Below are positions 1 through 16,869 of a stretch of 16,869 nucleotides of DNA, one piece after another. A model generated the notes under the pieces. That model had not been told where the DNA came from. It saw nothing but the letters and a program-made list of their open reading frames with translations, and did no database searches. Source of the DNA: Nitrospinae bacterium RIFCSPLOWO2_12_FULL_45_22 (GTDB lineage: Bacteria; 2-12-FULL-45-22). Location of the stretch: positions 1-16,869 of the forward strand of contig MHDQ01000310.1 of NCBI GenBank assembly GCA_001803565.1, written 5' to 3'. The position numbers and the translations under genes were made by a program. Numbering within the stretch: position 1 is the stretch's first letter; each line of letters opens with the position of its first letter.

Positions 1-353
1 ATGGTTTTGCCCCGGGTGACATCAAGTCCAGTGGTGTACGCAAGGGAGATGCCCCGGTCTTTATCACGTCCCAGTACCGGATTGGTGAAGCGGGAGACCT
101 TACCAACCATCATCCCATTGGATTTGGCTATCAGGATGTAGAGGCGGTGGACGATGAGATCCAGCGGGCATCGGCACCTATGAATGCCCTTTACACCATT
201 GGTGACCTGCTATGGGCCGGGCAGATGGAGTGTACCACCTGTCATGATGTCCATAACACCAAGAACACGGGTGAAAAATTCCTCTGGGTATCTGATAAAG
301 AGAGTGATCTTTGTATGACCTGTCACCTGAAGGGAGAAGTAAGTAAGGAATAG
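1..353 (+). CDS. Multiheme c-type cytochrome, C-terminal fragment (doubled CXXCH type)
   Basis: The frame is open from base 3 to the TAG at 351-353, so the gene begins before the window. The visible 116 residues carry two heme c attachment motifs, CTTCH and CMTCH, about 30 residues apart near the C-terminus. This is the spacing of the doubled-CXXCH domain, in which two hemes are stacked by short inter-motif segments. The upstream segment ...DLTNHHPIGFGY... supplies extra histidines that could be axial ligands, a pattern seen in periplasmic or extracellular multiheme cytochromes of this type. The total heme number cannot be known from the fragment. It probably belonged to the same transcription unit as the next gene, from which it is separated by 162 bases holding a strong hairpin. 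The heme motifs are seen directly. The electron-transfer role follows from the family, and the cell location is inferred. Confidence 0.8.
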   Translation, partial: GFAPGDIKSSGVRKGDAPVFITSQYRIGEAGDLTNHHPIGFGYQDVEAVDDEIQRASAPMNALYTIGDLLWAGQMECTTCHDVHNTKNTGEKFLWVSDKESDLCMTCHLKGEVSKE

Positions 354-363
354 TTTCCCATCG

Positions 364-390
364 CCCCCACCCTCTGGCAGAGGGTGGGGG
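364..390 (+). terminator. Perfect 12-bp GC-rich hairpin after the cytochrome stop
   Basis: Bases 364-375 (CCCCCACCCTCT) pair perfectly with 379-390 around a three-base loop GGC. The hairpin begins 11 bases after the stop codon. No T-run follows directly; the nearest T-rich stretch is near 417-423. It may therefore be an RNA 3'-end stabiliser or a dispersed palindromic repeat rather than a classic intrinsic terminator. The structure is certain, the function is not. Confidence 0.5.
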
Positions 391-515
391 TGATGGCCGC
401 ATATATGGGAGGAAACTTTTTTGGAAAAAGTTTCTCCAACCTTTCAAAAAACTTTATTTGCCCGCATAATTGTATATCTTGGTTTTTTAAAGCTCTAAGG
501 GAGGAGGGGGAGAAA

Positions 516-1316
516 ATGTGGAAAGATGTACTTAGAAAGGTGAGTTTATTTACGATAGTCATGATAGTTACAATGCTCATAGGCACTGGCTCGGTGGCTG
601 CCTGGGAGACGAATAAGCATGCTTACCACTTTGGGATGCACCAATTTAATCCAGGAGGGGCAAACGATGCTATGGTATGGGCAACCGCATGGAGTAGCAC
701 CAGAATATGGAGGCCGCCAATTCTCCAGAAGGCCTGGACTAACTGCTTCCCCAAGCGGAAGGGGTGGATATTGACAAAGATAGTACGCCCATGGCGTATG
801 GTAAAATTTGGCTATGCCCATATACCCTATTGCAAATGGTGTTGGTTTAATGTCGATTTTTACGTTCGGTCCCTTCCTCCATATATTAGTACTGCCTGGT
901 TCAGATGGACTCTCAATAGCCAGGGTATAGGCCCGTGGGTTTGGTTGGGATGGAGGGTGTCATCTCCCGCGGCCCTTTATAACCCTGCCACCGATCCCGA
1001 TGGAAATCCCGCAGAAGATATGGTGGTGAGGAATATCCAATTCGCCAATTCTCCTACCCGGATACCTAATGATCAGACCACCCTGGACAACCTTGAGGTG
1101 GTGGCGCTCTTCGCAGCATCTCAAGACCAAGGGAGGCTAGGTCCGTTTATAGTCCATCCCGGCACGGAAGTGATAATAGATCCTGTTCCAGTTGTGGATG
1201 AGCCTGTAGTAGGGGGCCGCACCGTGCTTGCTAAGGGAGAGATTGAGGTTCCGGAAGCTGAGGGAGGATTGATACCGTTTGTGATGCAGTTCATAGCCGA
1301 GAAGGATAGGGAATAG
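516..1316 (+). CDS. Secreted protein of unknown function; possibly a decaying gene
   Basis: I chose the ATG at 516 because a strong purine-rich ribosome binding site (around 498-511) lies just upstream and a clear signal peptide follows (residues 1-28, hydrophobic core FTIVMIVTMLIGTG, then SVAA). The product is 266 residues with no heme motif. The N-terminus (HAYHFGMHQFNPGG) and the last ~120 residues (acidic, proline-rich, ordinary bacterial composition) look like real protein. Residues ~58-140 are abnormally rich in Trp, Arg and Pro. Over the same DNA, another frame reads the more natural EGVDIDKDSTPMAYGKIW (about 760-815). A third frame gives an open hydrophobic stretch at about 812-925. 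This suggests compensating indels or gene decay. The frame also stays open after the TAG (see 1317-1451). I recognise no family. The position beside a cytochrome gene suggests an envelope role, but no function can be assigned. Confidence 0.5.
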   Translation: MWKDVLRKVSLFTIVMIVTMLIGTGSVAAWETNKHAYHFGMHQFNPGGANDAMVWATAWSSTRIWRPPILQKAWTNCFPKRKGWILTKIVRPWRMVKFGYAHIPYCKWCWFNVDFYVRSLPPYISTAWFRWTLNSQGIGPWVWLGWRVSSPAALYNPATDPDGNPAEDMVVRNIQFANSPTRIPNDQTTLDNLEVVALFAASQDQGRLGPFIVHPGTEVIIDPVPVVDEPVVGGRTVLAKGEIEVPEAEGGLIPFVMQFIAEKDRE

Positions 1317-1745: not shown

Positions 1746-2621
1746 TTACTCTCTTGTCCATATCCGGCCAACACTTTCCATGAATTCAGATAAGGAGTTT
1801 ACTTTTATGCTCTGCCGCAAGAGGCTCCTGAGACTGGCCTCACCCCTTACCTCCTTAAGCCTCTCCTCCACATATTGAGGTATCGCACCAAACCTATCCC
1901 CTAAGATAGTAAGAATATCCATATATATTCCTTTTTCTATTCCTTTTTCTATACCCTTTTCTATTCCTTCTTCCACGATAGATTTATATGTGCTAGATTC
2001 CATAAGCGTTTCCCTCCTCACGAACCTATCTAAGAACTCTTTATCATACCTAATACCAGATAGTATATACCATATAGCCTGCAATTCCAATCGCCTGTTC
2101 TTATCCTCTATCTTCTCTATCCTATCTATCACCTTAGAGAAGATATTCTCGGGGTCTTCTACCTTCATAAGAGATATAAGGGGCAATAGACCCTCTTTTT
2201 CATAAAGCTCTTCTCTTATTTCTATCCCTGACAAGGGTATCATTTTATAATCATACCTGTTTATCTCCTTTCCCCCTATTACTATCTGGTAACTCTCCTC
2301 AGTATATGTGCCCTTTCCCAGGTAGATCAAGATACTTATCAGAGGTAGACCATACTCTCTCGATATCAATCCCGCATATTCGAAAATCCTGACCGGGATG
2401 TCCCCTTCCCATTCTGACTGAAACTCTAAATGGGCTATGAACCTCTCCTCATCCTCCGTGATGACCTCGTAGATAAAATCTACCCGCCTCTCTACCCTCA
2501 GCAGTTCCTTATCTAGCCTGAGGTGACTACTCCTGACCCTATATTCTGGTATGAATTCCTGAATGAATTCCTTAGGGTATAGGGTTGATAAGTGCTTTAT
2601 GGCTATATCAACCTCTCCCAT
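1746..2621 (-). CDS. Rpn-family recombination-promoting nuclease / putative transposase (PD-(D/E)XK)
   Basis: The 291-residue product matches the Rpn / PD-(D/E)XK transposase-like family in length and layout. The N-terminal nuclease core contains RRVDFIYEV followed by HLEFQSEWE. D48, E66 and Q68 form the D...ExQ-type active site used by this family in place of ExK. A helical middle region follows. A low-complexity hinge, three IEKG repeats near residues 212-225, precedes a C-terminal helical part (GDRFGAIPQYVEERL), as is common in these proteins. The start is ATG 2621, with GGGAGG three to four bases upstream, a short spacing. Family members are DNA endonucleases that promote RecA-independent recombination and often occur in many copies. 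The gene is convergent with the upstream plus-strand block and co-oriented with the Uma2-family gene. The family call is confident; activity in this copy is inferred. Confidence 0.88.
   Translation of the reverse strand: MGEVDIAIKHLSTLYPKEFIQEFIPEYRVRSSHLRLDKELLRVERRVDFIYEVITEDEERFIAHLEFQSEWEGDIPVRIFEYAGLISREYGLPLISILIYLGKGTYTEESYQIVIGGKEINRYDYKMIPLSGIEIREELYEKEGLLPLISLMKVEDPENIFSKVIDRIEKIEDKNRRLELQAIWYILSGIRYDKEFLDRFVRRETLMESSTYKSIVEEGIEKGIEKGIEKGIYMDILTILGDRFGAIPQYVEERLKEVRGEASLRSLLRQSIKVNSLSEFMESVGRIWTRE
1927..1974 (-). repeat. Four tandem 12-bp units inside the Rpn-family gene
   Basis: Units at 1927-1938 and 1939-1950 are identical (ATTCCTTTTTCT on the plus strand). Those at 1951-1962 and 1963-1974 are variants. 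Each encodes one four-residue IEKG-like step on the minus strand. A change of one unit would keep the reading frame, so slippage would lengthen or shorten the linker without inactivating the nuclease. Confidence 0.85.
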
Positions 2622-2880: not shown

Positions 2881-3480
2881 TTAGATGAGTCTCCTGGCAA
2901 TTTCAAAGGGGTCTTCTTTATCAAAATTATCAAGCCATGCCATCATCAGAAAGAAACCTTCCCAAATGCTACTTTTGAATTCATCTCCTGCTATTTCTAT
3001 CCTTTGGAACCTCTTCCCTGCATTACTGTAAAATTCCCATTGCTTTTCAGACGGGTCCAATAACCATAATTCCTTAACATGAAAAGCTTCGTATTTCTTA
3101 AACTTCCAGCCCTTATCATATTCCGCGGTAGAAGGGGACAATATCTCTATGATCAAATCGGGGGCTCCATCCAGGTATTGTTCTTTAATGCGGAAGAGAT
3201 TCTCTTGGGAGACGAAAAAGATATCCGGCTCAAATAGGTTATCCTCATCCAACCGGACCACCGCAGGGTTATAATATAGCTCGCCCAGACCTTTAGACCT
3301 GATATAATAAGTCAAGATATTGAGCAGGAACAAGGCAAATTTCTGATGTATTATGGCTACCGGTGTATGCATGATAAGCTCCCCATCTATGACTTCCCAG
3401 TAATCGTCCTCGGTAGATTTTTCAAAAAAGTATTCTGCTGCACGCTTATATGTGAGCCCCAATTTACCCGATTTTGCCAT
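2881..3480 (-). CDS. Uma2-family (DUF820) PD-(D/E)XK endonuclease-like protein
   Basis: The 199-residue product has the conserved Uma2 pattern. An early WEVIDGELI segment (E29, E34) comes first, then FEPDIFFVS (D86), then APDLIIEILSPST (D108, E112) and a downstream DKGWKFKKY. These correspond to the acidic and lysine residues of the PD-(D/E)XK-like fold. I chose ATG 3480 because AGAGGTGG lies about seven bases upstream on the minus strand. An in-frame TTG at 3513 has a weaker context. Uma2 proteins are abundant in cyanobacteria and many anaerobes, and their biological role is mostly unknown. The gene lies upstream of the Rpn-family gene on the same strand, with a 259-base gap holding a palindromic repeat. 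Two unrelated PD-(D/E)XK families next to each other suggest an accessory insertion between cytochrome blocks. Confidence 0.9.
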   Translation of the reverse strand: MAKSGKLGLTYKRAAEYFFEKSTEDDYWEVIDGELIMHTPVAIIHQKFALFLLNILTYYIRSKGLGELYYNPAVVRLDEDNLFEPDIFFVSQENLFRIKEQYLDGAPDLIIEILSPSTAEYDKGWKFKKYEAFHVKELWLLDPSEKQWEFYSNAGKRFQRIEIAGDEFKSSIWEGFFLMMAWLDNFDKEDPFEIARRLI

Positions 3481-4090
3481 TATTAACCACCTCTTTATTC
3501 CTCCCTGTTTCAAAGAAAAGGATACCAGTTTTATCCAATAAAGTCAAAATAGATGAACCGCAGTGATCCGCTCGGGGCAGGGTAGATGGGGTGTACCACT
3601 CCATAGAATGCTACCGCCAGGTCATGCCATGAAATCAAGCCAGTATTAGACATGGCATACTGAGCCCACTTAATCTAGTTATCTGGCACGATTTGTGCTC
3701 ATTTCTTGATTCAGGAATACGTTCCAGAAAAGCCTGAAAAGACACGCCATGCCAGAAGTAAGCAAATGGGGTGAGCAATAACAATAATAAGGAGAAGGAT
3801 ACGTGGGTTAGAGTTAGATCAGATTAACAGTAGGGGTTGGAAAGTTTCAGTACTAAGTGCTCTAATCCATAATTACGGTGACGTATTTGAGAGAAAGTGC
3901 TTATGATAAGGAAACCAGGAATACAGGAGAGGTTAAAAATAGGGGATGTTAACCCCGCTTAGGCGGGGTTAATTTCCTGGCCTCTTGGTTTCCTAATAAA
4001 AAAGAAGGCAAAAAATAGGCATAATACGTAACTGTATTTATGAAATGAAGCACTAAGCCAACATCCAAATATATTAATGGGGTGGCGCAA
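3481..4090. other. Long intergenic region with nested hairpins, no gene seen
   Basis: About 600 bases separate the divergent Uma2-family and 9-heme cytochrome genes. I find no convincing ORF. Inverted segments include ATGCCATG (3624-3631) with CATGGCAT (3651-3658), GGTAG/CTACC around 3585-3615, and a nested hairpin at 3909-3994. I looked for a GEMM-type cyclic di-GMP riboswitch, which often precedes cytochrome genes in Geobacter-like bacteria, and did not recognise its conserved core. The region probably holds both divergent promoters, but no clear -35/-10 pair stands out. Confidence 0.5.
3949..3975 (+). terminator. Terminator-like hairpin upstream of the 9-heme cytochrome gene
   Basis: TTAACCCCGC (3949-3958) pairs perfectly with GCGGGGTTAA (3963-3972) around the loop TTAG, followed by TTT. 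It sits inside a larger stem, AGGAAACCA (3909-3917) with TGGTTTCCT (3986-3994). It lies about 115 bases before the cytochrome start, with no gene ending upstream on this strand. It may therefore act as an attenuator in a leader, or end a small RNA. Confidence 0.55.
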
Positions 4091-6181
4091 ATGATGCCTG
4101 ATAAGATTAAATACATTTTTATAGCGGTTATCTTTGTCCTGATCTTCTTCCTTATATTCACTGTTGATACCGGAGCATATGTGGGTGATGAAGAGTGTCT
4201 AATATGCCACAATCCAGGAGGTGCTGGTATCGGTGCTCCTGACAAGAGTGGCTATCTGATGACAGGCCATAAAAATGTGCTGAGAGAGGTTGTGCCTGGC
4301 GAAGCTTTGACCGGTCCTGATGGGGCTCCGTATGCAACCGATTCTTCTGGTCATATAATCGACTGGGCTACCGGGAGGATTGATTTAGATGGTGATAGTG
4401 CAGCCGAGACGGTGCTCTATTATGTTTTTAACGGTTGGATGGGTGGGGGCCCCTGGGCTCCGGGGGCGGTATATGCTGGCGGTGAATACGTCTGTGCAAG
4501 CTGCCATACCACGGGATATACAACCGATGAGCCCGGAGGTCCTGCCCCAGGGCCTGAACCTGACGCATCTTTTCCGGGCATACGAAGTTTGGTAACCATA
4601 GGTGGTTCATGGTATCTCGATGGCATCCAGTGCGAAAGGTGTCATGGAGATGGTGGAATCACAGTCCTCGGAGATTGTTTTCAATGCCACGATAATGGCT
4701 CCACAGATACTTCGGGCCACATATCCAAGTTCTCAATTGCCAATATCACAGCTCTCTGTGTGGAATGCCATACGAGCGGCAATACACCGCCTGCCGTCGG
4801 TGTTGGCTCCTACGGTGTATATGCTGCTTCCTTTGCCACTTACGGCATTGCACAGGAATTCCTGAATAGCCCCCATGGACAAAGCTCTGAGTTTGATGCT
4901 GATGGTTGTAGCACATGTCATAATGTCCATGAGAGCACGGTTGATGCGGTAGGTCATACCGGGGCAATAAAGAAGGTCTGTACTGATTGTCATTCAGGCA
5001 AGACCTTGGGATTTCATGAGGGTATTACCAAGGGACCCAAAAAATGTGAGGTCTGTCATATGCCTGCTGCAACAAGTGGTCGCATGACCCATCTCTGGAG
5101 AATAAACCCTGATCCTAACTATAGCTCTTTCCCTACAGAAGAGGAATACAATGCTGGGCAGGAAACTGCTTACACGGCTCCACATGGAGGCCTCGTTGAG
5201 GCTGTCTGGTTAGACGTAGAGATAGTCTGTCTCCAGTGTCATGGAGAATCGGGTGTGGCTTTAACTAAATTAACCAAGTTTGAGGTAGGGACTGTGGCAA
5301 AGGATTATCATTCAGGTGGGTGGGGTGGGATGCCAATAGCAAGGTTTAACTGGTATTATGGCACAGACTGCTACACGGTAAATTTTGATGCCACAATGAA
5401 TGATTCCACCACCTTCAATTGGGATTTTGGCGATGGTCATACGGGTGCAGGTGCAGTAATAAGCCATACCTATGATGCTCCAGGCAGTTATGCGGTTACC
5501 CTGACCAGTGATTATGGTGCAAGAAGAACGATGATTGTTACGGCAAAGGGCAGAAATATTCCTCCCACTACAGGTATGAACATTTTGGTCGATCCATCAT
5601 ACCTAACGGGTATGACCATTGAGGTATACGACCAATCTACTTCTAATGCCTGTGGAGCAATGGGTTCAAGTGATCCGGGTATAGCTTATGTGCTCTGGGG
5701 TGATGGGCTAATGGATCTGGTTTCAATCACTACCGGGCAGTCTGATCCTGTCGCTACCCACACCTACCCCACCGCCGGAACATATACCATAAGATACTTC
5801 TTCAAAGATTCCGCGGGTAATCGGTCAATGGCACCGCGGCAGACGTGGACATTGCCTGATATTCCAACCGCGGTGTATGATGTCACTGGTAGTATTATGT
5901 GGGATCATGATGATGATCCTGGTACACCCAATGTTGGATTAGCCAATGTTACCATTTACCTGAAGAGGAACTCCAGTACGATTAAGATGGGAAAGACCGA
6001 CCTTTTGGGGTACTACGAGATAAAGGATGTCACAGTAAAAGTGAATAGTAGCGGAAATGAGGTTAGCTATACCGTAGAGCCAGGGAAAAATGCATACTCC
6101 TTCGAGGTTGCACCCGGTGATTCAGATCGGGTGAATAAAGCAGACCCGGTGGCTAACTTTATCGCCACTGCTCAGTGGTAA
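4091..6181 (+). CDS. Secreted nonaheme c-type cytochrome with PKD-type and CnaB-like C-terminal domains
   Basis: The ATG at 4091 follows GGGGTGG by about seven bases; GTG 4082 and ATG 4094 are alternatives. The product is about 696 residues. An N-terminal membrane-spanning signal (residues ~8-28) is followed by nine CXXCH motifs at residues 36, 135, 181, 196, 223, 273, 297, 319 and 380. An acidic Ca2+-site-like stretch (IDLDGDSAAE) lies between hemes 1 and 2. The heme part ends near 400. A PKD domain (~426-486, core FNWDFGDGHTGAG then YDAPGSYAVTL) is followed by a PKD-like domain (~491-590, LWGDG... HTYPTAGTYTIRYFF). A prealbumin/CnaB-like beta domain (~596-696, GLANVTIYLKR and TDLLGYYEI) closes the protein. 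PKD domains are extracellular, protein- or polysaccharide-contacting modules. The inferred role is surface electron transfer with an adhesive tail. There is no C-terminal membrane anchor or obvious sorting signal, so attachment is unknown. Confidence 0.88.
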   Translation: MMPDKIKYIFIAVIFVLIFFLIFTVDTGAYVGDEECLICHNPGGAGIGAPDKSGYLMTGHKNVLREVVPGEALTGPDGAPYATDSSGHIIDWATGRIDLDGDSAAETVLYYVFNGWMGGGPWAPGAVYAGGEYVCASCHTTGYTTDEPGGPAPGPEPDASFPGIRSLVTIGGSWYLDGIQCERCHGDGGITVLGDCFQCHDNGSTDTSGHISKFSIANITALCVECHTSGNTPPAVGVGSYGVYAASFATYGIAQEFLNSPHGQSSEFDADGCSTCHNVHESTVDAVGHTGAIKKVCTDCHSGKTLGFHEGITKGPKKCEVCHMPAATSGRMTHLWRINPDPNYSSFPTEEEYNAGQETAYTAPHGGLVEAVWLDVEIVCLQCHGESGVALTKLTKFEVGTVAKDYHSGGWGGMPIARFNWYYGTDCYTVNFDATMNDSTTFNWDFGDGHTGAGAVISHTYDAPGSYAVTLTSDYGARRTMIVTAKGRNIPPTTGMNILVDPSYLTGMTIEVYDQSTSNACGAMGSSDPGIAYVLWGDGLMDLVSITTGQSDPVATHTYPTAGTYTIRYFFKDSAGNRSMAPRQTWTLPDIPTAVYDVTGSIMWDHDDDPGTPNVGLANVTIYLKRNSSTIKMGKTDLLGYYEIKDVTVKVNSSGNEVSYTVEPGKNAYSFEVAPGDSDRVNKADPVANFIATAQW

Positions 6182-6215
6182 AAACCAATATTATTCATTA
6201 TTTCGGCAAAAAAAC

Positions 6216-6420
6216 GGCATCTTTCATTTTCCAGTTAACACTTTTAACCCACAATAGTGTAAGCAAGAGGTGATGGGGAGATAGGGAAGATAATGGAGAT
6301 ATTGGAAAAACAATGATATCTCCCTAATCTCCAAGCTCTCCGAATCTCCTTTTCTTACACATATCAACTATTATACTTTTATGAAGTGTTAACTACTTTT
6401 GGCTAAATATGAAGGATGCC
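6216..6420. mobile_element. MITE-like element with inverted ends and candidate target-site duplication
   Basis: The 205-bp stretch folds back on itself. GGCATCTTTCAT (6216-6227) mirrors ATGAAGGATGCC (6409-6420) with one mismatch. AGTTAACACTT (6233-6243) mirrors AAGTGTTAACT (6384-6394) exactly. Inner arms around GTGTAAG (6257-6263) / CTTACAC (6354-6360) and GGAGATAT/ATATCTCC continue the pairing. It is flanked by identical AAAAAAAC (6208-6215 and 6421-6428), which could be an 8-bp target duplication. It has no coding capacity. It lies entirely between two cytochrome genes, close before the second one, so it may carry or disturb that gene's promoter. The A-rich flanks weaken the duplication argument. 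Confidence 0.65.
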
Positions 6421-6490
6421 AAAAAAACTTAGTGAAACTTGGCGTTCTTGGTGGGTGGATAGCTATTGGTATTTTAGGGTTTGATGGCAA

Positions 6491-9400
6491 ATGACTAAGA
6501 GAAAGATCATTATAAAAGCTTTAATTCCCCTATTGGTATTAAGCCTGATAGCTATTCTTGCCTATGCCCTGGATTATCCTCATAACGCTATAAATACCAT
6601 TGGATGCAATAATTGCCACGATGTGCATGGAGAAGGTGCCTTGGAAGATCTTTTCCCATCATGGATGCCATATAATCCGCAGAATATTGATGATACGCTA
6701 TCCAATACCCTCTGCTGGAGTTGTCATAATGACCTCGAGGCCCCTTATGTAAGGACCCATTCCAGTCTTACCACAAGCGATAAATATGGAGCCTGGTCCC
6801 TCGAATGCCGAACCTGCCATAACCCTCACCTTCAGGAGCAGTTCAGGATATATGGCAGTGAAAGTTATCTTTATGAGGGTACAGTATCGTCAGTTGATGG
6901 CACAACCCTAATAGATGATAGTGCAGGCTGGACTACCGATCAGTTTAAAGGATTAGTCGTTATCCCAAATATTAATGAGAGTGATTACAACTATAAGATT
7001 GAAATGAATACTGAAAATACCCTGACAATAGAAGGGCCAATGAATTTAGACAAGGTAGCCCTGGGAGATACCTTTGCCATTGTATACGGGAAGAGCATAA
7101 AGAGCACAATAAAACTCGATGAGATAACAATATCACCACCCAAGAGCGGAGATAAGAGCGTAAAATTTTTCAGGGATACTGATCCCGATTCTTTTGCTGA
7201 TGGGGTTATGCCATACGATGGGGTCTGCGAGGTATGTCACACACAGACCGCATATCACAGAAACAATGACTCGGGAGATCATGATCATAACGTTGGAGTA
7301 AAATGCACAAATTGTCATCTCCATCTCGATGGTTTTAAAGGAGGCATGGGCGGTGGAGCACATACAACCCATGTAATAGAAGATTATGGACCCCAAATAT
7401 CCTGTACTGACTGTCACGGTACAAATAACCCGCCCATGCTTGCCGATGGGCAGGATCTTGCCAATACAAGCGTATGCACTAACTGTCATTCAGGAGATGG
7501 GGTAGGTAATGCGAAAGGATACTTTGGGGATAACCCAGGCACTTGGGTAGCGACAGAAGGCGAGGCAGGCTACTGTGGCAGTTGTCACGACACATCACCG
7601 GGAAAGACAGGAGCCGGTGCTCCTGCACCCAATATAATAGGTGATAACTCAACCTATGGGGTTTTTGTCACAGGACATGGAAAGCCCTCCGGTAATTATG
7701 CAAGGCTTTCCTGGCAGGATACCTCAGCAACGGGTAATCCGGCAGCGAACAAACAGTGCGGCTCCTGCCATGACCTTACTTCACAACATTTTAATACCGC
7801 TACAAAGAGGTTAAAACCCGGCTATGAGAATGATAATAATAACAGCAATTGTAATCAGTGTCATAAACCGGGAGGAAGTGCCGTGGCTGCCCCTCAATGG
7901 TACACGACATATGCTGATTATCAGAATTCGGCACACAGTAGCAATAAGTGTTCAGAGTGTCATAATGTGCACGGCGCCTCAGGGAATTATGCCGGGATGA
8001 CGAAAAACAACAAAGAAAATCTCTGCAATACTTGTCACGCGGGACATGCAGGGCATGCCCTCGGTGTTTCGTTTGGTAAAGACAGCAAAACATATTCATT
8101 GGAATGCATATCCTGCCATAATGTGCATATCGTAAGCGGCCTGACATCAGCGGCGAATCCCAATGTTGCGGCAATGACCAAGCTCACAAATAATTTAGAA
8201 GTCTGGGGTGATGAAGCCAGCGAGAAGATAAATAATTATGCCGGAGGCGGCACATACAGGACACCAAATGGTGATATACTGTCAGGCTCACAACTCCCTG
8301 ACTATCCGTCTTTCTGCCTTGACTGCCACGGCGTCTCCCAGGCTGAATTTGGAGAGCATGGGGGTATAAGCTGGGGTGGTGACGATCCGCATGGATTAAA
8401 TTCGGCAAACGAACCTAATGGAGGCGGCACATGTCCTGACAGGTGGAGTTGCGGAATGGCGGACGGCTGGGACGGCGACGATTGTGCCGGAACAGAGGAT
8501 GAATGCTGGCCCGTAATGACAAAAGGAAAAGGAGACCAACTCTGGTCAAGAGAAGCATATAATCACGAAGAAAGAATTGCAGGTGCAAACTTTGTTCTCT
8601 CATGTAGTGACTGCCATGTGACACATGAAGCGGGCATTGGCTCAAAGCTCAGGTCGTCAGTCAATAACGGTCCAGGAAGTACCATTTGGAACACAATGTG
8701 CAACAACTGCCATTACTATTACAGCGATTGGCATGATGGAATGTCATGTGGTAGTGTAAGCTGTCACGGCGCCCCGCCCAATAACCCAAGATTTCCTGGT
8801 GGTGGTGGCTCTAATACTATACATGGAATGGGCAGGCGTGTAGGATCGTCAGGTACCAGAACGTTTAATCCCGACCTTGTGTTAGACATGAGGTTTGAAG
8901 GAAATCTCAATGATTCCGGCACATGGAGACTTCACGGCAAATGGATGGACAATATAGCAGGTTCCTACACATCTGGAAAATCAGGTCAGGCAGTAGTGCT
9001 TAACGGTGGGAAGAACGTCCAGGTCGGGACAAGAAATTCTTACTGGTCTACTGACGACGGGAAGCACGGCACATGGAAGTATACAGAGATGAAATACAAC
9101 ACAACACTTGAGGCATGGGTATATCCCACAGACAATGCTGGAAGTGAATATAGCATCTTTACCAAACATGTAGGATACAATGACGGAGGATATGCGTTTA
9201 CTCTCCAGAAGATAAATAACACACTTAGGGCGGCATTTAATATGCGGGCAGACAATAATGGATTTACACAGGGAGGTGCAAGTGGTGTCCGGGGTGCATA
9301 TAGTTCCATAGCTATTCCATTAAATACCTGGACGCATGTAGCAGTCACATTCGACAAAAACGGTCCAGACAGGGACAATAATAATCCGGCTGTCGGAAGA

Positions 9401-10783
9401 ATCAGGATATATGTAAATGGAGAGGATGTCACAACAAGCGATACATCGGGAAATAATATGCAGCCCGGCGCAGGCGAGACCTCGATATTCGCTTATTCTG
9501 AAAATAGTCCTTGGAATCAGGGCATATGCCATAACGGTACCTGGTGTGCATCTGAATTTTCGATCGGTGGGTTTTATGCGTGGCAGAATGAATTCATAGG
9601 AAGAATAGATGAAGCAAAAGTCTGGAATGTGACTAAAGACGCTACCTACTTCGCGACATATGATTCACAGACAAAGCCCTATATAGGTGCGGCCAAAGGC
9701 TTAATAGGCAATAATCAGCTCACTGTGTACTTCTCCGAGGGTGTGTACGGAGGCGGAGGGTCTGCACTGGATGCATCTGATTTTTCCCTGACGGATACAA
9801 ATGGCGATAACCCAAGGACTATTACCGGGGTAATTCACACAGCCGGGGCATCAACCGCAGTTATTACCATGAGTGCACCATTAATAGCGGATGATGTGAA
9901 CGCAGATACCATAGCGGCTGTCAGCAGTTCCATTTTTGATGATTATAACAACGCGGCCGGGACAGAGGCGATGACAATAGAACTGTCGTCACAATGTCCA
10001 ACATCGCCTGTGAGCATACAACTTAATGAACCATCAGGCAGCACATATATAATGGATACGCAGAACGTTCTCTACGGAGCGGTAAACGGCGGTGCAGCTA
10101 CATTAACAGGCAGCGCATATTCTGGCGACGGAAGCACCAAATACATAACATTTACCGGTAATAATTCGTGCCTCCAGGCAACAACGGCACTTACCATTGA
10201 AACGAGGATCAAACCGACAGGCATAACCGCTGATACCACCAATTACATTACACGCATATTTGCGCGAAACTACAACAACAACTACAATTACCAGATGTCG
10301 GTCTGGAGGAACAACAGCGCCTATCCGGGTTTATACACTGCACCTGCCGGCCAGACCTCCATTGCTCTCTGGCTGCTCACAAACGGTACCACAACGTGGA
10401 AACCTGTGCTGACGAATTACACAGGCGCCAAAACTGGCTCCGAGAACGATTGTCCCATAGTATCCGACCACTGGTATCAAATAAAGGCCGTATGGAATAC
10501 CAACAAGCCAGGAGGGATAATCGGCCAGTACTTCCAACCTGCTGACATCTATATAGAGGACCAAGGTACCGATGGGAACGGACTGGGCAAGAACTGGACG
10601 GGACTGATAAACTGTACGGATACCGACCAGTCTCTTAAGACTGATTCGGTCAAGTTCTTTACCAACGATCAGATAACCTCGGGCAGCGGCAGTTTTGCCA
10701 TAGGCGCAAACAAGGACACTCAAACCAATCTTCGATTCAACGGCCTGATAGACTGGATAACGTGGAAAGATACTGTTGATTAG
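6491..10783 (+). CDS. Giant multiheme cytochrome (16 CXXCH + 1 CX4CH) with LamG and Ig-like domains
   Basis: The 1430-residue secreted protein has a signal peptide (1-26, cleavage near AYA-LDYPHN). The ribosome binding site before ATG 6491 is weak. Canonical heme motifs start at residues 39, 75, 106, 246, 272, 305, 329, 362, 423, 454, 487, 512, 539, 609, 705 and 737. A CX4CH motif (C753...H759) follows, as in the CxxxxCH-type sites of Geobacter multiheme proteins. A small beta-rich module (~120-205) sits between hemes 3 and 4. A non-heme cysteine cluster (C648, C654, C665, C672) lies between hemes 14 and 15. After residue ~795 come a LamG/concanavalin-like domain (to ~1050), a SwmB/Ig-like domain (~1062-1165, LTVYFSEGVYG) and a second LamG-like domain (~1174-1430). 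The heme count is seen directly. Extracellular electron transfer with carbohydrate or surface binding is inferred from the domain types. The cytochrome part is paralogous to the gene at 12216. Confidence 0.9.
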   Translation: MTKRKIIIKALIPLLVLSLIAILAYALDYPHNAINTIGCNNCHDVHGEGALEDLFPSWMPYNPQNIDDTLSNTLCWSCHNDLEAPYVRTHSSLTTSDKYGAWSLECRTCHNPHLQEQFRIYGSESYLYEGTVSSVDGTTLIDDSAGWTTDQFKGLVVIPNINESDYNYKIEMNTENTLTIEGPMNLDKVALGDTFAIVYGKSIKSTIKLDEITISPPKSGDKSVKFFRDTDPDSFADGVMPYDGVCEVCHTQTAYHRNNDSGDHDHNVGVKCTNCHLHLDGFKGGMGGGAHTTHVIEDYGPQISCTDCHGTNNPPMLADGQDLANTSVCTNCHSGDGVGNAKGYFGDNPGTWVATEGEAGYCGSCHDTSPGKTGAGAPAPNIIGDNSTYGVFVTGHGKPSGNYARLSWQDTSATGNPAANKQCGSCHDLTSQHFNTATKRLKPGYENDNNNSNCNQCHKPGGSAVAAPQWYTTYADYQNSAHSSNKCSECHNVHGASGNYAGMTKNNKENLCNTCHAGHAGHALGVSFGKDSKTYSLECISCHNVHIVSGLTSAANPNVAAMTKLTNNLEVWGDEASEKINNYAGGGTYRTPNGDILSGSQLPDYPSFCLDCHGVSQAEFGEHGGISWGGDDPHGLNSANEPNGGGTCPDRWSCGMADGWDGDDCAGTEDECWPVMTKGKGDQLWSREAYNHEERIAGANFVLSCSDCHVTHEAGIGSKLRSSVNNGPGSTIWNTMCNNCHYYYSDWHDGMSCGSVSCHGAPPNNPRFPGGGGSNTIHGMGRRVGSSGTRTFNPDLVLDMRFEGNLNDSGTWRLHGKWMDNIAGSYTSGKSGQAVVLNGGKNVQVGTRNSYWSTDDGKHGTWKYTEMKYNTTLEAWVYPTDNAGSEYSIFTKHVGYNDGGYAFTLQKINNTLRAAFNMRADNNGFTQGGASGVRGAYSSIAIPLNTWTHVAVTFDKNGPDRDNNNPAVGRIRIYVNGEDVTTSDTSGNNMQPGAGETSIFAYSENSPWNQGICHNGTWCASEFSIGGFYAWQNEFIGRIDEAKVWNVTKDATYFATYDSQTKPYIGAAKGLIGNNQLTVYFSEGVYGGGGSALDASDFSLTDTNGDNPRTITGVIHTAGASTAVITMSAPLIADDVNADTIAAVSSSIFDDYNNAAGTEAMTIELSSQCPTSPVSIQLNEPSGSTYIMDTQNVLYGAVNGGAATLTGSAYSGDGSTKYITFTGNNSCLQATTALTIETRIKPTGITADTTNYITRIFARNYNNNYNYQMSVWRNNSAYPGLYTAPAGQTSIALWLLTNGTTTWKPVLTNYTGAKTGSENDCPIVSDHWYQIKAVWNTNKPGGIIGQYFQPADIYIEDQGTDGNGLGKNWTGLINCTDTDQSLKTDSVKFFTNDQITSGSGSFAIGANKDTQTNLRFNGLIDWITWKDTVD
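6533..6635 (+). repeat. 103-bp block nearly identical to 12258-12360
   Basis: It encodes the signal peptide end and first heme of the 1430-residue cytochrome. It matches 12258-12360 at 101 of 103 positions, including synonymous sites. The conservation is far above that of the DNA between shared blocks, which suggests recent duplication or gene conversion. Confidence 0.9.
7214..7318 (+). repeat. 105-bp block nearly identical to 12936-13040
   Basis: It covers hemes 4 and 5 (CEVCH and CTNCH). It matches the paralog at 100 of 105 positions by direct comparison. The stretch between this block and the one at 6533-6635 is much more diverged, apart from a perfect 32-bp match (6752-6783 with 12477-12508). 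Confidence 0.88.
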
Positions 10784-10870
10784 TCAGGAATGGTTATGGG
10801 AGGTTTTGCCGATATTCATCTTGCTTTGTCCCCTTGAGGGGTATGAATGTTTGATGTGAGGTGATGGAAG

Positions 10871-12178
10871 ATGAAATGGAAAATAACACACAGCAAACAA
10901 TACCTGATCATGCTCTTTGCTGTTTCTTTATTCTTTTTATTCTGTTTTGTCTGCACCATTCAAGCAGCAACCATGCCTGGGTATGAAAGATTCCAGCCCA
11001 TAACTACAAAGATAAATGCACCGACGGCAGTAGCCCTTGATGCTTCTGAAAACATCTATGTCGTAGAGTCAAGCAATAATAAGCTCCTCACTTATAGTCA
11101 AGACGGTCAATACTTGAGGACCCTTAGAGGGCTTGATAAACCAATCAGTATTGCTGTAAGTAATGATGGAAGGATATTTGTCGGCAACGACGGCAGAGGG
11201 GATGTAGAGGTTTATGACGCTGACCTGACCTTTCTCTATAAACTTGGCTCAGGAGATAAAGAATTTAGCCGACCGGGTGCAATTGCGGTTGATAGTGCCG
11301 GTAATGTTTATGTAGCAGACAGTAAAGGAGATAAGATAAAGGTCTATAATCCTGATAGTTCTTATAAATTTTCACTTGGGAGTTCTGGGAGTAAAGATGG
11401 CCAATTTCATTTTCCCACATCCATAGCAATAGATGAGCTGTCAGGGGAGATAATAATCTCAGACCTTCAGCTAGTAGAGACTGAGTTTGGTTCAACTCAG
11501 GGTGCCCGGATACAGGTCTTTGACCTGAATGGTGGGTTTAAAAGGGGCTTTGGTAATTTCGGGTTTGGAAAAGGAAAGTTAGCCAAACCCCTGGGTGTGG
11601 ATGTAGATAAAGAGGGCAGGATATATGTCAGTGATTCATATCAGAATATAGTGCAGGTATTTGATAGTAATGGCATATTTCTTGGAACCATATACGACCT
11701 GGATAATCCTATGAGGACACCCCTAGGGATAGCCATCGGCCAGAAGACCAACAGGCTTTTTATTGCATCACTCAATACCTCAAGGGTGGAAGTGTATGAT
11801 GTAATACATAAACCACGCCCTGACATCAAGGCCAATAATGCAGATGGGCCAATAGGCATAACCACTAATGAAGACTGTTCTATAACTGTATCCCTTAATC
11901 CTGGGGATCGAACCGGTGAGGCGGCAGACTGGTGGTTAGCAGTAGATACCTCTCTTGGCCTGTTTTGTTATAATGCATCCAAAGATTCCTGGGTATCTGG
12001 CAATTCAGTTACATATCAAGGCCCATTGTTTAACCTGGCTCCAACTGGGTTGGGGCATATCTCGGGTTTACCCCCAGGCACTTATACCTTCTATTTTGGG
12101 GTTGATATAAATATGGACGGCTCATTGGATGATAGCCAGTTGTATTATGACAGTGTTGAGGTGAATATAACTGAGTAA
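10871..12178 (+). CDS. Secreted six-bladed NHL-repeat beta-propeller protein
   Basis: ATG 10871 is set by GAGGTGAT at 10858-10865. An in-frame start slightly earlier is not available, since ATG 10864 is in another frame. The 435-residue product has a signal peptide (1-33, ending TIQA-ATMPG). About six NHL blades follow (residues ~45-330), each with the pattern P.giAvd..g.iyVaDs...ikvyd, for example PGAIAVDSAGNVYVADSKGD. The C-terminal ~95 residues form a separate beta domain beginning NADGPIGITTNEDCSITVSL, with ADWWLAVDT and ending LPPGTYTFYFGVDINMDGSL...YYDSVEVN. I recognise this tail as a module seen in secreted anaerobe proteins but cannot name a Pfam family. It contains no heme motif. It lies between the two giant cytochrome genes with gaps of 87 and 37 bases, so it is probably co-transcribed. 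A docking, assembly or scaffold role for the cytochromes is inferred. Confidence 0.88.
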   Translation: MKWKITHSKQYLIMLFAVSLFFLFCFVCTIQAATMPGYERFQPITTKINAPTAVALDASENIYVVESSNNKLLTYSQDGQYLRTLRGLDKPISIAVSNDGRIFVGNDGRGDVEVYDADLTFLYKLGSGDKEFSRPGAIAVDSAGNVYVADSKGDKIKVYNPDSSYKFSLGSSGSKDGQFHFPTSIAIDELSGEIIISDLQLVETEFGSTQGARIQVFDLNGGFKRGFGNFGFGKGKLAKPLGVDVDKEGRIYVSDSYQNIVQVFDSNGIFLGTIYDLDNPMRTPLGIAIGQKTNRLFIASLNTSRVEVYDVIHKPRPDIKANNADGPIGITTNEDCSITVSLNPGDRTGEAADWWLAVDTSLGLFCYNASKDSWVSGNSVTYQGPLFNLAPTGLGHISGLPPGTYTFYFGVDINMDGSLDDSQLYYDSVEVNITE

Positions 12179-12215
12179 ATGGAGCAGTGGGTGATTTCAG
12201 TATCCCGGGGGAATA

Positions 12216-15200
12216 ATGAGAAAGCGAAATGTCATTATAAAGGCTTTGGTTATGGTATTGGTATTAAGCCTGATAGCTATCTTTGCCTATGCCCTGGATT
12301 ATCCTCATAACGCTATAAATACCATTGGATGCAATAATTGCCACGATGTGCATGGAGAAGATGCCGAAGAGAATCTTTTCCCCCCATGGATAGAATACAA
12401 CCCTCAAAATATTGATGATACTCGATCTAATACCCTCTGCTGGCATTGTCACAATGGTATGGTGGCTCCCTACGTGAGGACCCATTCCAGTCTTACCACA
12501 AGCGATAAGTATGGAGACTGGTCCATCGAGTGCCGGACCTGTCATAACCCTCACCTGCAGGAGCAATTCAGGACATATGGAGAAGGTAGTTGTCTTTATT
12601 TGGGTGAATCAACAGACATTCAGATAGATCAGCCAGGGGGAGGAAAAAGTCAGCTTACTCAGACCGGTGCGGGATGGGAAAATGATGCGTATCGAGGATT
12701 AGTGGTTATTCCTAAGATTGCTGAGGAAAGTTACGGTTATAAGATAGAAAGCAATACCGGAGATACCCTGACAGTAGAGGGGATCATAGATTTAAGCAAG
12801 GTAGCGGTGGGAGATCGCTTTGCCATTATATATGGCAAGCTCATCAAGAGCCCAATATATACTCCCAACAGTGGGGAAAGGGAGGTAAGATTCTTCAAGG
12901 GTGGGGTTCTTAATTATGCGGATGGAGATATAGTATACGATGGCGTCTGCGAGGTATGTCACACACAGACCACATATCACAGAAACAATGACTTGGGAGA
13001 TCATGGTCATAACGTTGGAGTAAAATGCACAAATTGCCATTCACATCTTAATGGGTTTAAAGGTATTGGAGGCACCAGCGGATCCCATCCGACCCATCTA
13101 GGCGCCGCATATGGACCAAATATGACATGTTCCAGCGGTAATCTCGGATGCCATGGCGCAAATAGCCCACCCACATTTGCCGATGGAAATAACTTTCAAA
13201 ATACTACAGTGTGTAATACATGTCACAGCCCTGGTGGGTCTTATGACGGTGTAGACGATCTGATAATTGGTGCCAGAGCAAATTGGGATGAAGGGGTTTA
13301 TGAGGGAAATTTACTAAAATCTGGCAAAGAGAAATGGTGCGCAAGCTGTCACGATGAGATTCCATCGGTAATAGAGGGTGTAAGCGCTCCGAATATTATA
13401 GGGGATGAGGATACTGCCACTCCTTATGGGACCGGATACGGCTTTTACAAAACCGGTCATGGACTATCCACCAGCAAACGATACCCGGCCACAGGTGGTC
13501 CAGGTGCTGGACTTGGCTGCCAGAATTGTCATGATGCCGGAATGCCGCACATCGATGGGATCGTCAGGAGCTATGAACCTGATAGTGATTATTTGACGTT
13601 CGATCCTGTTAGTGCCAACTATCAGAATGGATTTAGGTTAAAAGACGTAGCAACAGGTTATGATGGGAAATATGCCCTGCATATACCCAGAACGGGCCAT
13701 GTTTATCCACCAGGTTTTAGAGCGGATTGGGAATTCGCTCTCTGTTTCCAATGTCATGCTAAGGATCAATTATTTAACGGGGGAGACCCGGAAACCGGAG
13801 AGGGTGCCGGCACGAACTTCTACGCCAAAAGTGATGGTGACGGGGGAGGCAATCCTTTACCTACAGCAGGTTTCTATTATAGCATGCACGATGTGCATAC
13901 GTGGGGCGCTAACGGTCCTTTAGGCCCAGAGACACCCCAATATGACTCAGACTTTGATGGAACTGCCGATTCCAGGATACGCTGTCCTGCCTGTCACAAT
14001 GTCCATGGCTCACCTTCTCCCGCAATGATGCGTCACGGTGAACTTATTGGCAAGGCCCCCGCTATAGACTTTCAATATACCCCTGAAGGAACCTATCCAA
14101 CCCTGGCAAACAGCACCGGGGGTAAGACCCGTTTTATTGCACCCGGGCCGGGAGATGTTTCAAAGAATGGTATATGCAACATGTGTCATAATGATCAAAT
14201 GACTTATGCCAGAACTCCCATTGATACCATTGCACCAGAGATTTCCTGGGTAGATGGACAGGTAGACAGCGATATTCTGACAGTCAGTTTTTCTGAAGGT
14301 GTATATAGTGATATGGGTGCCGTTGGTGACTTGACATCAAGCGATTTTACCCTGACAGATTCCGACAATGGCCGCGCAATTATAGGTGTAACTCATACTG
14401 CCGGTGATGCTACTGCGATCCTCATATTAGATTCTCCTCTCGATTCAACGGATGATATTGGAATTGATACGCTCTCAGGGGCTACCTCTACTTCTATCTA
14501 TGATGCCCTGGGTAATCCTATGGATACGACCCCAGTCATTATCTCCAGCGGGGACCATGCCCCGCCAACCCTTTCCAACAAAAATCCTGCAACTGGCACT
14601 ATTAATATTGCAGTTGATAGTGATCTGACTTTTACCTTGTCAGATAGTGGAAGTGAGATAGACTGGACAACATTCTCTATACAGATTTCAGGGGATAAGG
14701 GCTATTCGGCGATATATACCGATGAAGATACTTCTATAGTTTCAAAAACAGGCTCACCGGTCAGTTATGATGTTACGGTGAATCCTGATGCCGATTTCGG
14801 AAGCGGAGAAGTCATAACAATCATAGTCAATGTAGATGATCTGGTAGGCAATTCTATGATACCACCAGCCTGGTCTTTTACCATCACACCAGGAGGTGCT
14901 CCGGCAACGCTTTCCCTCCATCCATCGGGTGTTGCCTCAGATGGGGGATTTAGTCCGATAAATGGCTCCTGGGCGACGGTTCTGGACAGCAATGACGGGG
15001 ATGCCAGTTATGTTAATTATTGCTGTGGCCCGGGAGGTCAAATCTTTTATGTCCATATGGATGATCTTCCTGCGGGGCTGGAAGCTGCAACCATCGATAG
15101 TATTACCATTGATGTCTACGCCAGATACCTGGATGGTGCATGGCCCGGGGCTATACCTTATGCCGGAAATGTAGATATTGGCTATAAGACCGGGACGAAT

Positions 15201-15404
15201 ACTGTATGGAAAGGGAATACTGCTACTAATACCTCTGGCGCCTATAACCTTATCATGTCGAACACTTATACTACTGATTCAGATGGAGGTCCATTGGACC
15301 TAACCGATATCAATAACCTCCAGATTGCTGTCAAACGAAATACTTCCGGGCCACCAGTATTGCGTGTAACAGAGGTCTATGTCGAAATTGCTTATACCCC
15401 TTAA
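12216..15404 (+). CDS. Giant multiheme cytochrome (11 CXXCH + 1 CX6CH) with Ig-like and beta-sandwich tail
   Basis: ATG 12216 has CGGGGG about five bases upstream. The 1062-residue protein begins with the same signal peptide and first hemes as the 1430-residue cytochrome. CXXCH motifs start at residues 39, 75, 106, 245, 271, 333, 375, 435, 510, 590 and 654. At residue 305, where the paralog has CTDCHG, this protein has CSSGNLGCHG, a CX6CH spacing. The heme part ends near 665. A SwmB/Ig-like domain follows (~674-777, LTVSFSEGVYS, the same domain as in the paralog). Next come a second bacterial Ig-like domain (~782-893, APPTLSNKNPATGTINIAVD) and a C-terminal beta-sandwich (~896-1062) with a CC pair (YVNYCCGPGG), not found in the paralog. 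The function inferred is extracellular electron transfer with a different binding tail. No anchor is visible. Confidence 0.9.
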   Translation: MRKRNVIIKALVMVLVLSLIAIFAYALDYPHNAINTIGCNNCHDVHGEDAEENLFPPWIEYNPQNIDDTRSNTLCWHCHNGMVAPYVRTHSSLTTSDKYGDWSIECRTCHNPHLQEQFRTYGEGSCLYLGESTDIQIDQPGGGKSQLTQTGAGWENDAYRGLVVIPKIAEESYGYKIESNTGDTLTVEGIIDLSKVAVGDRFAIIYGKLIKSPIYTPNSGEREVRFFKGGVLNYADGDIVYDGVCEVCHTQTTYHRNNDLGDHGHNVGVKCTNCHSHLNGFKGIGGTSGSHPTHLGAAYGPNMTCSSGNLGCHGANSPPTFADGNNFQNTTVCNTCHSPGGSYDGVDDLIIGARANWDEGVYEGNLLKSGKEKWCASCHDEIPSVIEGVSAPNIIGDEDTATPYGTGYGFYKTGHGLSTSKRYPATGGPGAGLGCQNCHDAGMPHIDGIVRSYEPDSDYLTFDPVSANYQNGFRLKDVATGYDGKYALHIPRTGHVYPPGFRADWEFALCFQCHAKDQLFNGGDPETGEGAGTNFYAKSDGDGGGNPLPTAGFYYSMHDVHTWGANGPLGPETPQYDSDFDGTADSRIRCPACHNVHGSPSPAMMRHGELIGKAPAIDFQYTPEGTYPTLANSTGGKTRFIAPGPGDVSKNGICNMCHNDQMTYARTPIDTIAPEISWVDGQVDSDILTVSFSEGVYSDMGAVGDLTSSDFTLTDSDNGRAIIGVTHTAGDATAILILDSPLDSTDDIGIDTLSGATSTSIYDALGNPMDTTPVIISSGDHAPPTLSNKNPATGTINIAVDSDLTFTLSDSGSEIDWTTFSIQISGDKGYSAIYTDEDTSIVSKTGSPVSYDVTVNPDADFGSGEVITIIVNVDDLVGNSMIPPAWSFTITPGGAPATLSLHPSGVASDGGFSPINGSWATVLDSNDGDASYVNYCCGPGGQIFYVHMDDLPAGLEAATIDSITIDVYARYLDGAWPGAIPYAGNVDIGYKTGTNTVWKGNTATNTSGAYNLIMSNTYTTDSDGGPLDLTDINNLQIAVKRNTSGPPVLRVTEVYVEIAYTP
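12258..12360 (+). repeat. Partner of the 6533-6635 near-identical block
   Basis: It matches 6533-6635 with two differences (TC/CT exchange within GCTAT..TTGCC). It covers the signal peptide and first heme of the 1062-residue cytochrome. Confidence 0.9.
12936..13040 (+). repeat. Partner of the 7214-7318 near-identical block
   Basis: Five differences in 105 positions from 7214-7318; at least one changes an amino acid. It covers hemes 4 and 5. Confidence 0.88.
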
Positions 15405-15779
15405 TGATGTATCATTTCTATCCCGAGGCCGCTTCTCTCTTCCTAGCCTTTTCGCCACATCACTGAGGTAAAAAACCTCTCTATGGCTTGATCACCTGGT
15501 TTCCCTATTAATCATAAAAGGGTCATAACTGGTATTTTTTTGTATCTATAGAGACAAAGGGTATCACCTCAGGGCATAATAATTGTTCTCCCTTTCAAAC
15601 GGTGGGAAATTAATCATACCAGGGGGGGTAAACCGATATGAATAAATGTGTTAAAATTACTACAAACCTCCCTCTCAATTAGAAATGCAAAGAAATGGAG
15701 TCTTTTAGGAGAAAAGAAGGTATATGCAGGCGTAAATTTGCCCTATTCATTCCATAATAGTAACAGGAGGCAGGAGATT
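15405..15779. other. Intergenic region before the propeller lipoprotein gene
   Basis: This gap of about 375 bases has no convincing gene. A small hairpin GAGGT-AAAAA-ACCTC occurs at 15465-15479, without a clear T-run. A 14-codon ORF (15638-15682) follows an AGGGGGGG stretch by some eight bases, but it is too short to support. The length suggests an independent promoter for the lipoprotein gene; no certain -35/-10 pair is visible. Confidence 0.45.
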
Positions 15780-16869
15780 ATGCGGTTATCAAGACATTTA
15801 CTCATATGGGCTCTTTCAGCTTTCTTATTGATACCTTCCGGGTGTGCAACAACCCCTGAGAAACTGACACCTGTCATGGTACCAAAAGTATTCTTTCCCG
15901 ATCCTCCGGGACTTCCCCGCATCCAATTCCTCCGGAGCTTCACTTCCAGTAAGGATATAGAATCTCCAAGATCACAATTTGACCGGTTTGTGACCGGAGA
16001 GGAACAGCGGATAAAACGAATCGATAAGCCCTATGGTGTAGGTATCTACGATGGTAAGATATATGTCTGTGACAGCAATAGTACGGTAATGGTCTTTGAC
16101 CTTAAAAACAAGAAATTCCAGGAGCTGGAAGGGGCAAAAGGGTTGGGGAAGCTTGTACAGCCCCTTAATATAAGCATAGATAGTGATGGCACCAAGTATG
16201 TCGCTGACCCGGTGCGGGGACAGGTAGTTGTGTATAACCGGGAAGACTTTTTTGTGAAGGCCATCGGCTCTCCTGCCGAGTGGACACCTATTGATGCCGT
16301 GCCCTTTGATAATAAATTGTATGTGATCGATAAGAAGAGCCGTGATGTTTGGATCATGGATAAAAAGACCGGTGCATTGCTGAATAAGATAGGCAGGAAA
16401 GCAGAGGATGAGACCAAGTGGCTGGGCCTGCCAACAAACCTGGCCTTTGATTCCAAAGGCTATTTATATATATCAGATACCGGGAGATTTCAGGTGGTTA
16501 AATATGACCGGGATGGCCATTTTCTGGGGGCTATCGGGATGTTGGGCACGAGTCCGGGCCGCTTCTCCCGTCCCAGGGGTGTTGCAGCGGATAGAAACGG
16601 GAGATTATATGTGGCGGATGCATCATTTGATAATGTTCAGATTTTTAATAATGACGGTAGGCTGCTGATGTTCTTTGGCAGACCAGGAAATAGAGAGGGG
16701 GATCTCTTCCTGCCGGCTAAGGTGGTGATAGATTATAATCATTTAGCATATTTCTCAGAATACCTGGATCCGAATTTTCAGGCAGAGGCCCTGGTCATCG
16801 TTACCAGCCAGTTCGGGCCGCGGCTGGTTAATATATTTGCCCTGGGGAGACAAAAAGGGGTTAAGTATC
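15780..16869 (+). CDS. NHL-repeat beta-propeller lipoprotein, 5' part (runs off the window)
   Basis: The ATG at 15780 is preceded by the strong binding site AGGAGGCAGGAG. The frame is open through 363 codons to the window end, so the C-terminus is missing. The N-terminus is a lipoprotein signal (MRLSRHLLIWALSAFLLIPS, then G-C22). The -3 residue of the lipobox is Pro, which is not ideal, but the charge, hydrophobic core and GC are convincing. NHL-like blades follow from residue ~80. Examples are IDKPYGVGIYDGKIYVCD, VQPLNISIDSDGTKYVAD, LPTNLAFDSKGYLYISDTG and FSRPRGVAADRNGRLYVAD. It has no heme motifs. It differs from the propeller at 10871 in being lipid-anchored and in lacking the extra beta domain so far. 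Lipoprotein NHL propellers near multiheme cytochromes may serve as outer-membrane docking partners; this is inference. Confidence 0.9.
   Translation, partial: MRLSRHLLIWALSAFLLIPSGCATTPEKLTPVMVPKVFFPDPPGLPRIQFLRSFTSSKDIESPRSQFDRFVTGEEQRIKRIDKPYGVGIYDGKIYVCDSNSTVMVFDLKNKKFQELEGAKGLGKLVQPLNISIDSDGTKYVADPVRGQVVVYNREDFFVKAIGSPAEWTPIDAVPFDNKLYVIDKKSRDVWIMDKKTGALLNKIGRKAEDETKWLGLPTNLAFDSKGYLYISDTGRFQVVKYDRDGHFLGAIGMLGTSPGRFSRPRGVAADRNGRLYVADASFDNVQIFNNDGRLLMFFGRPGNREGDLFLPAKVVIDYNHLAYFSEYLDPNFQAEALVIVTSQFGPRLVNIFALGRQKGVKY

Follow-up and report, generated by a model that had tools for sequence, protein, structure and literature searches.

The window analysed here, the whole 16,869-base contig C310, encodes giant multiheme cytochromes with beta-domain tails, one of which, cytB, has a full-length homologue in one other phylum and a partial homologue in a third; an NHL gene is paired with the cytochrome in all three phyla. 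We lean, by a small margin over even, towards regarding these proteins as multiheme cytochromes that are secreted or displayed on the cell surface and serve extracellular electron transfer, with beta tails that would fix a heme wire to something outside the cell.

A cluster of multiheme cytochrome and NHL genes

The genome containing the window (G000; 3.67 Mb, 85% complete) has a second contig, C219, which ends in the same 80 bases with which the window begins. Joining both across this exact overlap restores an open frame for one tetraheme cytochrome of 274 aa, so the two contigs are contiguous in the genome. Window and C219 form one cluster, to which C219 contributes a paralogue of cytA, a cytochrome with four hemes and the third NHL gene. 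The joined order is tetraheme cytochrome (minus strand), NHL (minus), cytA paralogue, tetraheme cytochrome, an unassigned secreted ORF, Rpn-like ORF (minus), Uma2 ORF (minus), cytA, cytB, NHL1, cytC and NHL2 (Table 1). The Uma2 and weak Rpn ORFs break up the cluster on the opposite strand, and another Uma2-like ORF lies on C219. There are no tRNA genes in the window, an Rfam search of it gave no riboswitch or other RNA family match, and its 23 promoter-like sites are not above the 29.9 expected by chance. Family searches and reading of ORFs recognised no porin or PPIase in the window or in the joined C219, the cluster running off the contig. An MtrB/PioB-like porin is encoded elsewhere in the genome, on contig C64 (2e-8), beside a 9-heme ORF, and heme motifs abound in the genome (418 matches to the CXXCH pattern vs 75 with a reversed-pattern control); this porin and the several hundred heme motifs make extracellular electron transfer plausible.

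Table 1. Coordinates of features in the window (positions from its first base) and of B12-binding radical SAM genes in loci of other genomes.
Feature	Coordinates	Strand	Evidence or remark
Tetraheme cytochrome (274 aa), C-terminal part	3..353	+	heme motifs, C219 join; remainder on C219
ORF without family match, tryptophan-rich	384-1316		signal peptide from about residue 44
Rpn-family ORF, weak	1746-2621	-	match 0.007
Uma2-family ORF	2881-3513	-	match 5e-29
cytA, 9-heme secreted cytochrome, PKD-type tail	4082..6181	+	ATG more likely 4091
cytA PKD domain, residues 428-477	5363..5512	+	PF18911 1.3e-16; PDB collagenase PKD chains 1e-4
cytA second, divergent PKD/Ig-like domain	5594..5842	+	PF00801 3e-4 on fragment, below cut-off
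cytA C-terminal CnaB/transthyretin-like domain, weakly supported	5879..6178	+	tail kept in C219 paralogue
cytB, 16 CXXCH + CX4CH cytochrome, tail LamG1 / ~105-aa repeat / LamG-like	6491..10783	+	
cytB N-terminal module common to cytC	6491..7819	+	
cytB beta insert between hemes 3 and 4, residues ~124-203	6860..7099	+	
cytB non-heme cysteines C648, C654, C665, C672	8432..8506	+	
cytB LamG1 (concanavalin-like)	8855..9652	+	PF13385 1.1e-13
cytB ~105-aa repeat ('SwmB-like'), one copy	9656..9988	+	
cytB terminal LamG-like domain (LamG2)	9986..10780	+	sequence pattern only
NHL1, secreted NHL beta-propeller	10871..12178	+	36% to gene upstream of G349 cytochrome
cytC, 11 CXXCH + CX6CH cytochrome, beta tail	12216..15404	+	
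cytC middle heme module, residues 307-668	13134..14219	+	homologous (40%) to stand-alone 7-heme cytochrome of L013
cytC ~105-aa repeat, common to cytB tail	14211..14555	+	SWM_repeat 0.03
cytC Big_5 Ig-like domain, residues 780-889	14553..14882	+	PF13205 1.7e-5; 1e-6 on fragment
cytC C-terminal beta-rich domain	14883..15401	+	matches no family
NHL2, NHL propeller, probable lipoprotein	15648..16868	+	cut by contig end
B12-radical SAM, locus L100	8390-9841		
B12-radical SAM, locus L101	7063-8514		
B12-radical SAM, locus L129	10969-12429		
B12-radical SAM, locus L106	15033-16463		

The first-pass annotation had proposed 9, 16+1 and 11+1 heme sites, and motif counts agree: there are 9 CXXCH motifs in cytA, 16 in cytB and 11 in cytC, with a further CX4CH site in cytB (CGSVSCH, residue 753) and a CX6CH site in cytC (CSSGNLGCH, residue 305), whereas residue shuffles of each protein contained a mean of 0.02-0.03 motifs (<0.04) and a maximum of one. 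The CX6CH site aligns with an ordinary CXXCH of cytB and of its G349 homologue (see below), which marks it as a heme site that has been modified, not a random occurrence of the pattern. Signal peptides can be read by eye at the N-termini of cytA, cytB and cytC and, together with the several CXXCH motifs and candidate distal histidines, place them among multiheme c-type cytochromes of the extracellular electron transfer type. No C-terminal membrane anchor is visible in the sequence of the large cytochromes and no lipobox was seen on any of the three. They do not classify as MtrC/OmcA type: PF22113 matched cytA and cytC only in part, and TIGR03507 was matched by the 4-heme fragment alone, below cut-off. 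At E 0.01 neither cytB nor cytC had any PDB sequence match, and hence none to nanowire cytochromes of the OmcS/OmcE/OmcZ type; cytA retrieved PKD chains and a weak match to MccA, and nothing else. A search of the plasmid collection with cytB gave no match, and AlphaFold models made without alignments were uninformative for the cytB and cytC tails (pLDDT 30 and 38).

The domain labels given earlier to the tails hold in part. For cytA, described as carrying PKD plus CnaB-like domains, the PKD domain is clear, whereas no library confirms the CnaB-like label: Pfam and NCBIfam gave no significant match, the best being SdrD_B (0.03) on the tail of the cytA paralogue. This paralogue, on C219, has 906 aa, nine hemes and PKD, with 42% identity over cytA residues 418-698, and is the only protein with which the cytA tail was compared, the cross-genome comparison of tails having covered cytB. 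In cytB (LamG, SwmB/Ig-like, LamG), the first LamG stands, the PF13385 match spanning residues 869-995 with 52 bits vs a cut-off of 27.6, and neither the SwmB label nor the second LamG finds a library match. SWM_repeat (PF13753) matched no repeat copy of cytB or of its G349 homologue, and no Pfam family matched LamG2 in cytB, G310 or G349. By our own reading, LamG2 resembles LamG in its sequence pattern (ALTIExRI; HWYxIxxVWN; ADIYxDDQG; GxIDWxxW); when LamG2 and LamG1 were compared as profiles, albeit very thin ones of 2-3 sequences, no relation emerged, and the alignments of LamG1 and of the terminal domain retrieved nothing useful when used as profiles against the PDB. For cytC (SwmB/Ig-like, Ig-like, beta-sandwich), the Ig-like domain is upheld by Big_5, the repeat scored 14.9 bits against PF13753, under the cut-off of 27, and the last domain remains without a family.

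Apart from residues 1-455 (59% over the part that aligns) and a single beta domain of ~110 residues (37-38%), the giant paralogs cytB and cytC have little in common. The sharing is thus as first described, limited to the N-terminal heme part and the domain then called SwmB-like, a label that fails as above; this N-terminus is not purely heme, since it holds a beta insert. The insert domain also occurs in giant heme-free secreted proteins of genomes G180 and G314, and has a weak match (0.0018) to phrog_778, a phage tail assembly family. Four non-heme cysteines (C-X5-C-X10-C-X6-C), all kept in G349 and absent in G310, lie between hemes 14 and 15 of cytB and may form disulfides or a metal site. 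In the heme part, 38 of the 39 histidines of cytB are conserved in G349, comprising 17 proximal ones and 21 outside the motifs, which is enough for bis-His ligation at every heme, as in electron wires.

Homologues in other phyla and exchange of domains

A profile search of 386 genomes identified homologues of the shared N-terminus in 16 other genomes. The phylum of G000 has one other genome in this set, and the phyla of G000, G349, G237 and G306 are small, so that phylum-wide searches added few genomes. G349, from another phylum, encodes a 1,980-aa protein with 53% identity to cytB residues 11-1222 and with 16 CXXCH plus a CX4CH, and directly upstream of its gene lies that of an NHL protein 36% identical to NHL1. 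In a third phylum, G310 contains a partial cytB homologue (1,225 aa, 13 CXXCH plus CX4CH) without LamG1 but with two repeats and the terminal domain, also with an NHL gene directly upstream. Contamination was rejected as the source of the cross-phylum match, because contig GC fits both hosts (0.459 among 0.43-0.47 in G000; 0.596 and 0.594 in G349) and the G349 protein is 53% identical to cytB, not near-identical.

The two NHL propeller proteins of the window are confirmed by PF01436 (2e-22 and 1e-12), with NHL2 probably starting at an ATG near 15780 and containing 'LLIPSGC'. An NHL gene lies within two genes in six of the seven loci whose heme body closely resembles that of cytB/cytC (contig C367 of G349, two loci in G306 and one each in G400, G320, G310 and G237); for more distant matches, several of them on short contigs, linkage is found in about half or fewer. 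Both copies in G306 and that in G400 show the order NHL, 4-heme, 7-heme, NHL, B12-radical SAM, 14-heme (cytB N-terminus), ResB and CcsA-like ORF, and in G320 an NHL gene is followed by that of a 14-heme protein. Within G000, NHL genes also adjoin multiheme cytochromes on contigs C3 and C8, but not on C179 or C48. The NHL-cytochrome pairing seen in other genomes answers the objection, raised with the first-pass annotation, that the genes might be unlinked in relatives with no conserved neighbourhood.

We also observed that a B12-binding radical SAM protein with the common N-terminal motif VTPPYHSGVVESAG adjoins giant cytochromes in G306, G400 and G354. In G015, a single ORF (locus L019, 3-3848) combines NHL, PKD, TSP3 repeats and five hemes, constituting an NHL-cytochrome fusion.

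LamG1 (75%) is the part best conserved between cytB and its G349 homologue, followed by the heme segments (54-68%), then the repeat (46%) and lastly the terminal domain (32%). Judged by this pattern, LamG1 is not a dispensable add-on; conservation this strong indicates that the domain would be essential, whether for binding or for contact with the hemes, and could reflect packing on the heme core instead of ligand binding. The heme part is itself, by sequence comparison, a mosaic: in L013 the counterparts of cytC residues 307-668 and of cytB residues ~533-760 are two adjacent stand-alone genes, and in G237 the cytB body is divided into a 5-heme and a 9-heme gene. The earlier picture of one heme module combined with swapped tails was therefore right as to modularity and apparent exchange of pieces, but not as to a constant heme module, given the splits in L013 and G237 and a LamG1 conserved above the heme core.

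A model built from cytB and cytC finds one copy of the ~105-aa repeat in each of these, five copies in G349 and two in G310. Among heme body sites, 185 are shared only by cytB and G349 vs 19 only by cytB and G310, whereas in the terminal domain the respective counts are 18 and 67. The terminal domain occurs in only three of the 386 genomes (G000, G349, G310), always on such a cytochrome. These conflicting affinities of body and terminal domain suggest domain exchange, although, with three sequences only, rapid change of this domain in G349 would account for part of the conflict as well. Tentatively, and with less confidence than in a role in electron transfer, we propose a horizontally dispersed two-gene cassette formed by an NHL propeller and a giant lectin-cytochrome, with a conserved 14-17-heme wire, an exchangeable terminal recognition domain and a stalk of variable repeat number. 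If so, the target specificity and the reach of the wire would evolve apart from its conductance.

Proposed role of the tails and alternatives

Under the favoured reading of extracellular electron transfer, the chain of bis-histidine hemes would act as the wire, continued covalently by the beta domains, whose target would most likely be an extracellular polysaccharide, a glycoprotein or a partner surface. LamG1 of cytB would be an integral part beside the last hemes, the ~105-aa repeats (1, 2 or 5 copies) a spacer or stalk whose reach varies, and the LamG-like domain at the C-terminus of cytB an exchangeable tip, while the paired NHL propellers, from their linkage, may be assembly or docking partners. 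We infer in this way outer-membrane secretion, ligand binding, the stalk role, NHL docking and electron flow, as well as attachment by the tails.

A possible, if unlikely, alternative is that the beta domains are structural, serving folding, secretion or polymerisation into a nanowire-like filament and not the binding of an outside ligand. Extracellular cytochrome nanowires are known (OmcS, OmcE, OmcZ), LamG1 is conserved above the heme core, as an internal interface would be, and the terminal domain is confined to these cytochromes; however, cytB and cytC match no solved nanowire cytochrome in sequence, and the lack of LamG1 in G310 and a repeat number varying from 1 to 5 are hard to square with a fixed packing role. 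It seems improbable that, instead of serving as wires, these proteins work as redox enzymes or sensors on a polymer or mineral to which their tails would direct them. Extracellular enzymes typically use lectin-like domains to reach their substrates, and the four conserved cysteines between hemes 14 and 15 and the two hemes with unusual CX4CH/CX6CH motifs would fit such an activity, but the conserved histidines suffice for bis-His ligation throughout, leaving no open catalytic site, and G310 does without the cysteines. We give marginally less credit still to the tails being incidental, the product of generic accretion of surface domains in a cytochrome-rich lineage, without a dedicated attachment function: the heme-LamG1-repeat-terminal layout and its NHL neighbour are kept nearly full-length across phyla, even though the beta insert also occurs in heme-free giant secreted proteins and multiheme cytochromes are rapidly gained, lost and exchanged (PMC12977616).

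Relation to known systems and significance

Published adhesion-type fusions, OetF and the giant MHC of ANME, bear out the earlier statement that fusions of this type exist. In the Oet conduit of ANME-partner sulfate reducers, as here, a cytochrome of a presumed extracellular conduit carries beta adhesion-type domains; those of OetF are fibronectin domains, for which binding to matrix or partner has been proposed (PMC10553843), vs LamG, PKD and the ~105-aa repeat in the window, Oet being compared by description and not by sequence. The ANME giant MHC types A-C are likewise giant cytochromes with fused domains, S-layer or pectin-lyase-like, the latter proposed to recognise the partner cell wall (PMC9012536), but they are archaeal, with 20-80+ hemes and other fused domains than those found here. 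A SEEP-SRB operon encodes 26- and 16-heme cytochromes, a PPIase and a beta-propeller protein (PMC12246660), resembling the window in that large multiheme cytochromes adjoin a beta-propeller gene, and differing from it in the beta tails and in the PPIase gene, not recognised in the window. The available excerpts on Uet, Dethiobacter and D. ferrophilus (PMC10734462, PMC10376724, PMC9769857) place NHL genes with extracellular or outer-membrane multiheme cytochromes, as occurs here with NHL and extracellular-type cytochrome genes, and describe no beta tails for those cytochromes. A literature search with most subscription journals outside its coverage found no paper combining a multiheme cytochrome with LamG. 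Adhesion-domain cytochromes and propeller-cytochrome clusters are thus already known; what is new is the particular set of domains, the fact that it is kept together with NHL in three phyla, and a body and a tip that, as the site comparison suggests, evolve independently.

It is an open question how extracellular electron transfer is directed by cells at a given surface or partner, and a conserved wire with a separately evolving tip would make it directly testable. The conservation of LamG1 above the hemes is also a warning against treating such domains as add-ons in cytochrome annotation.
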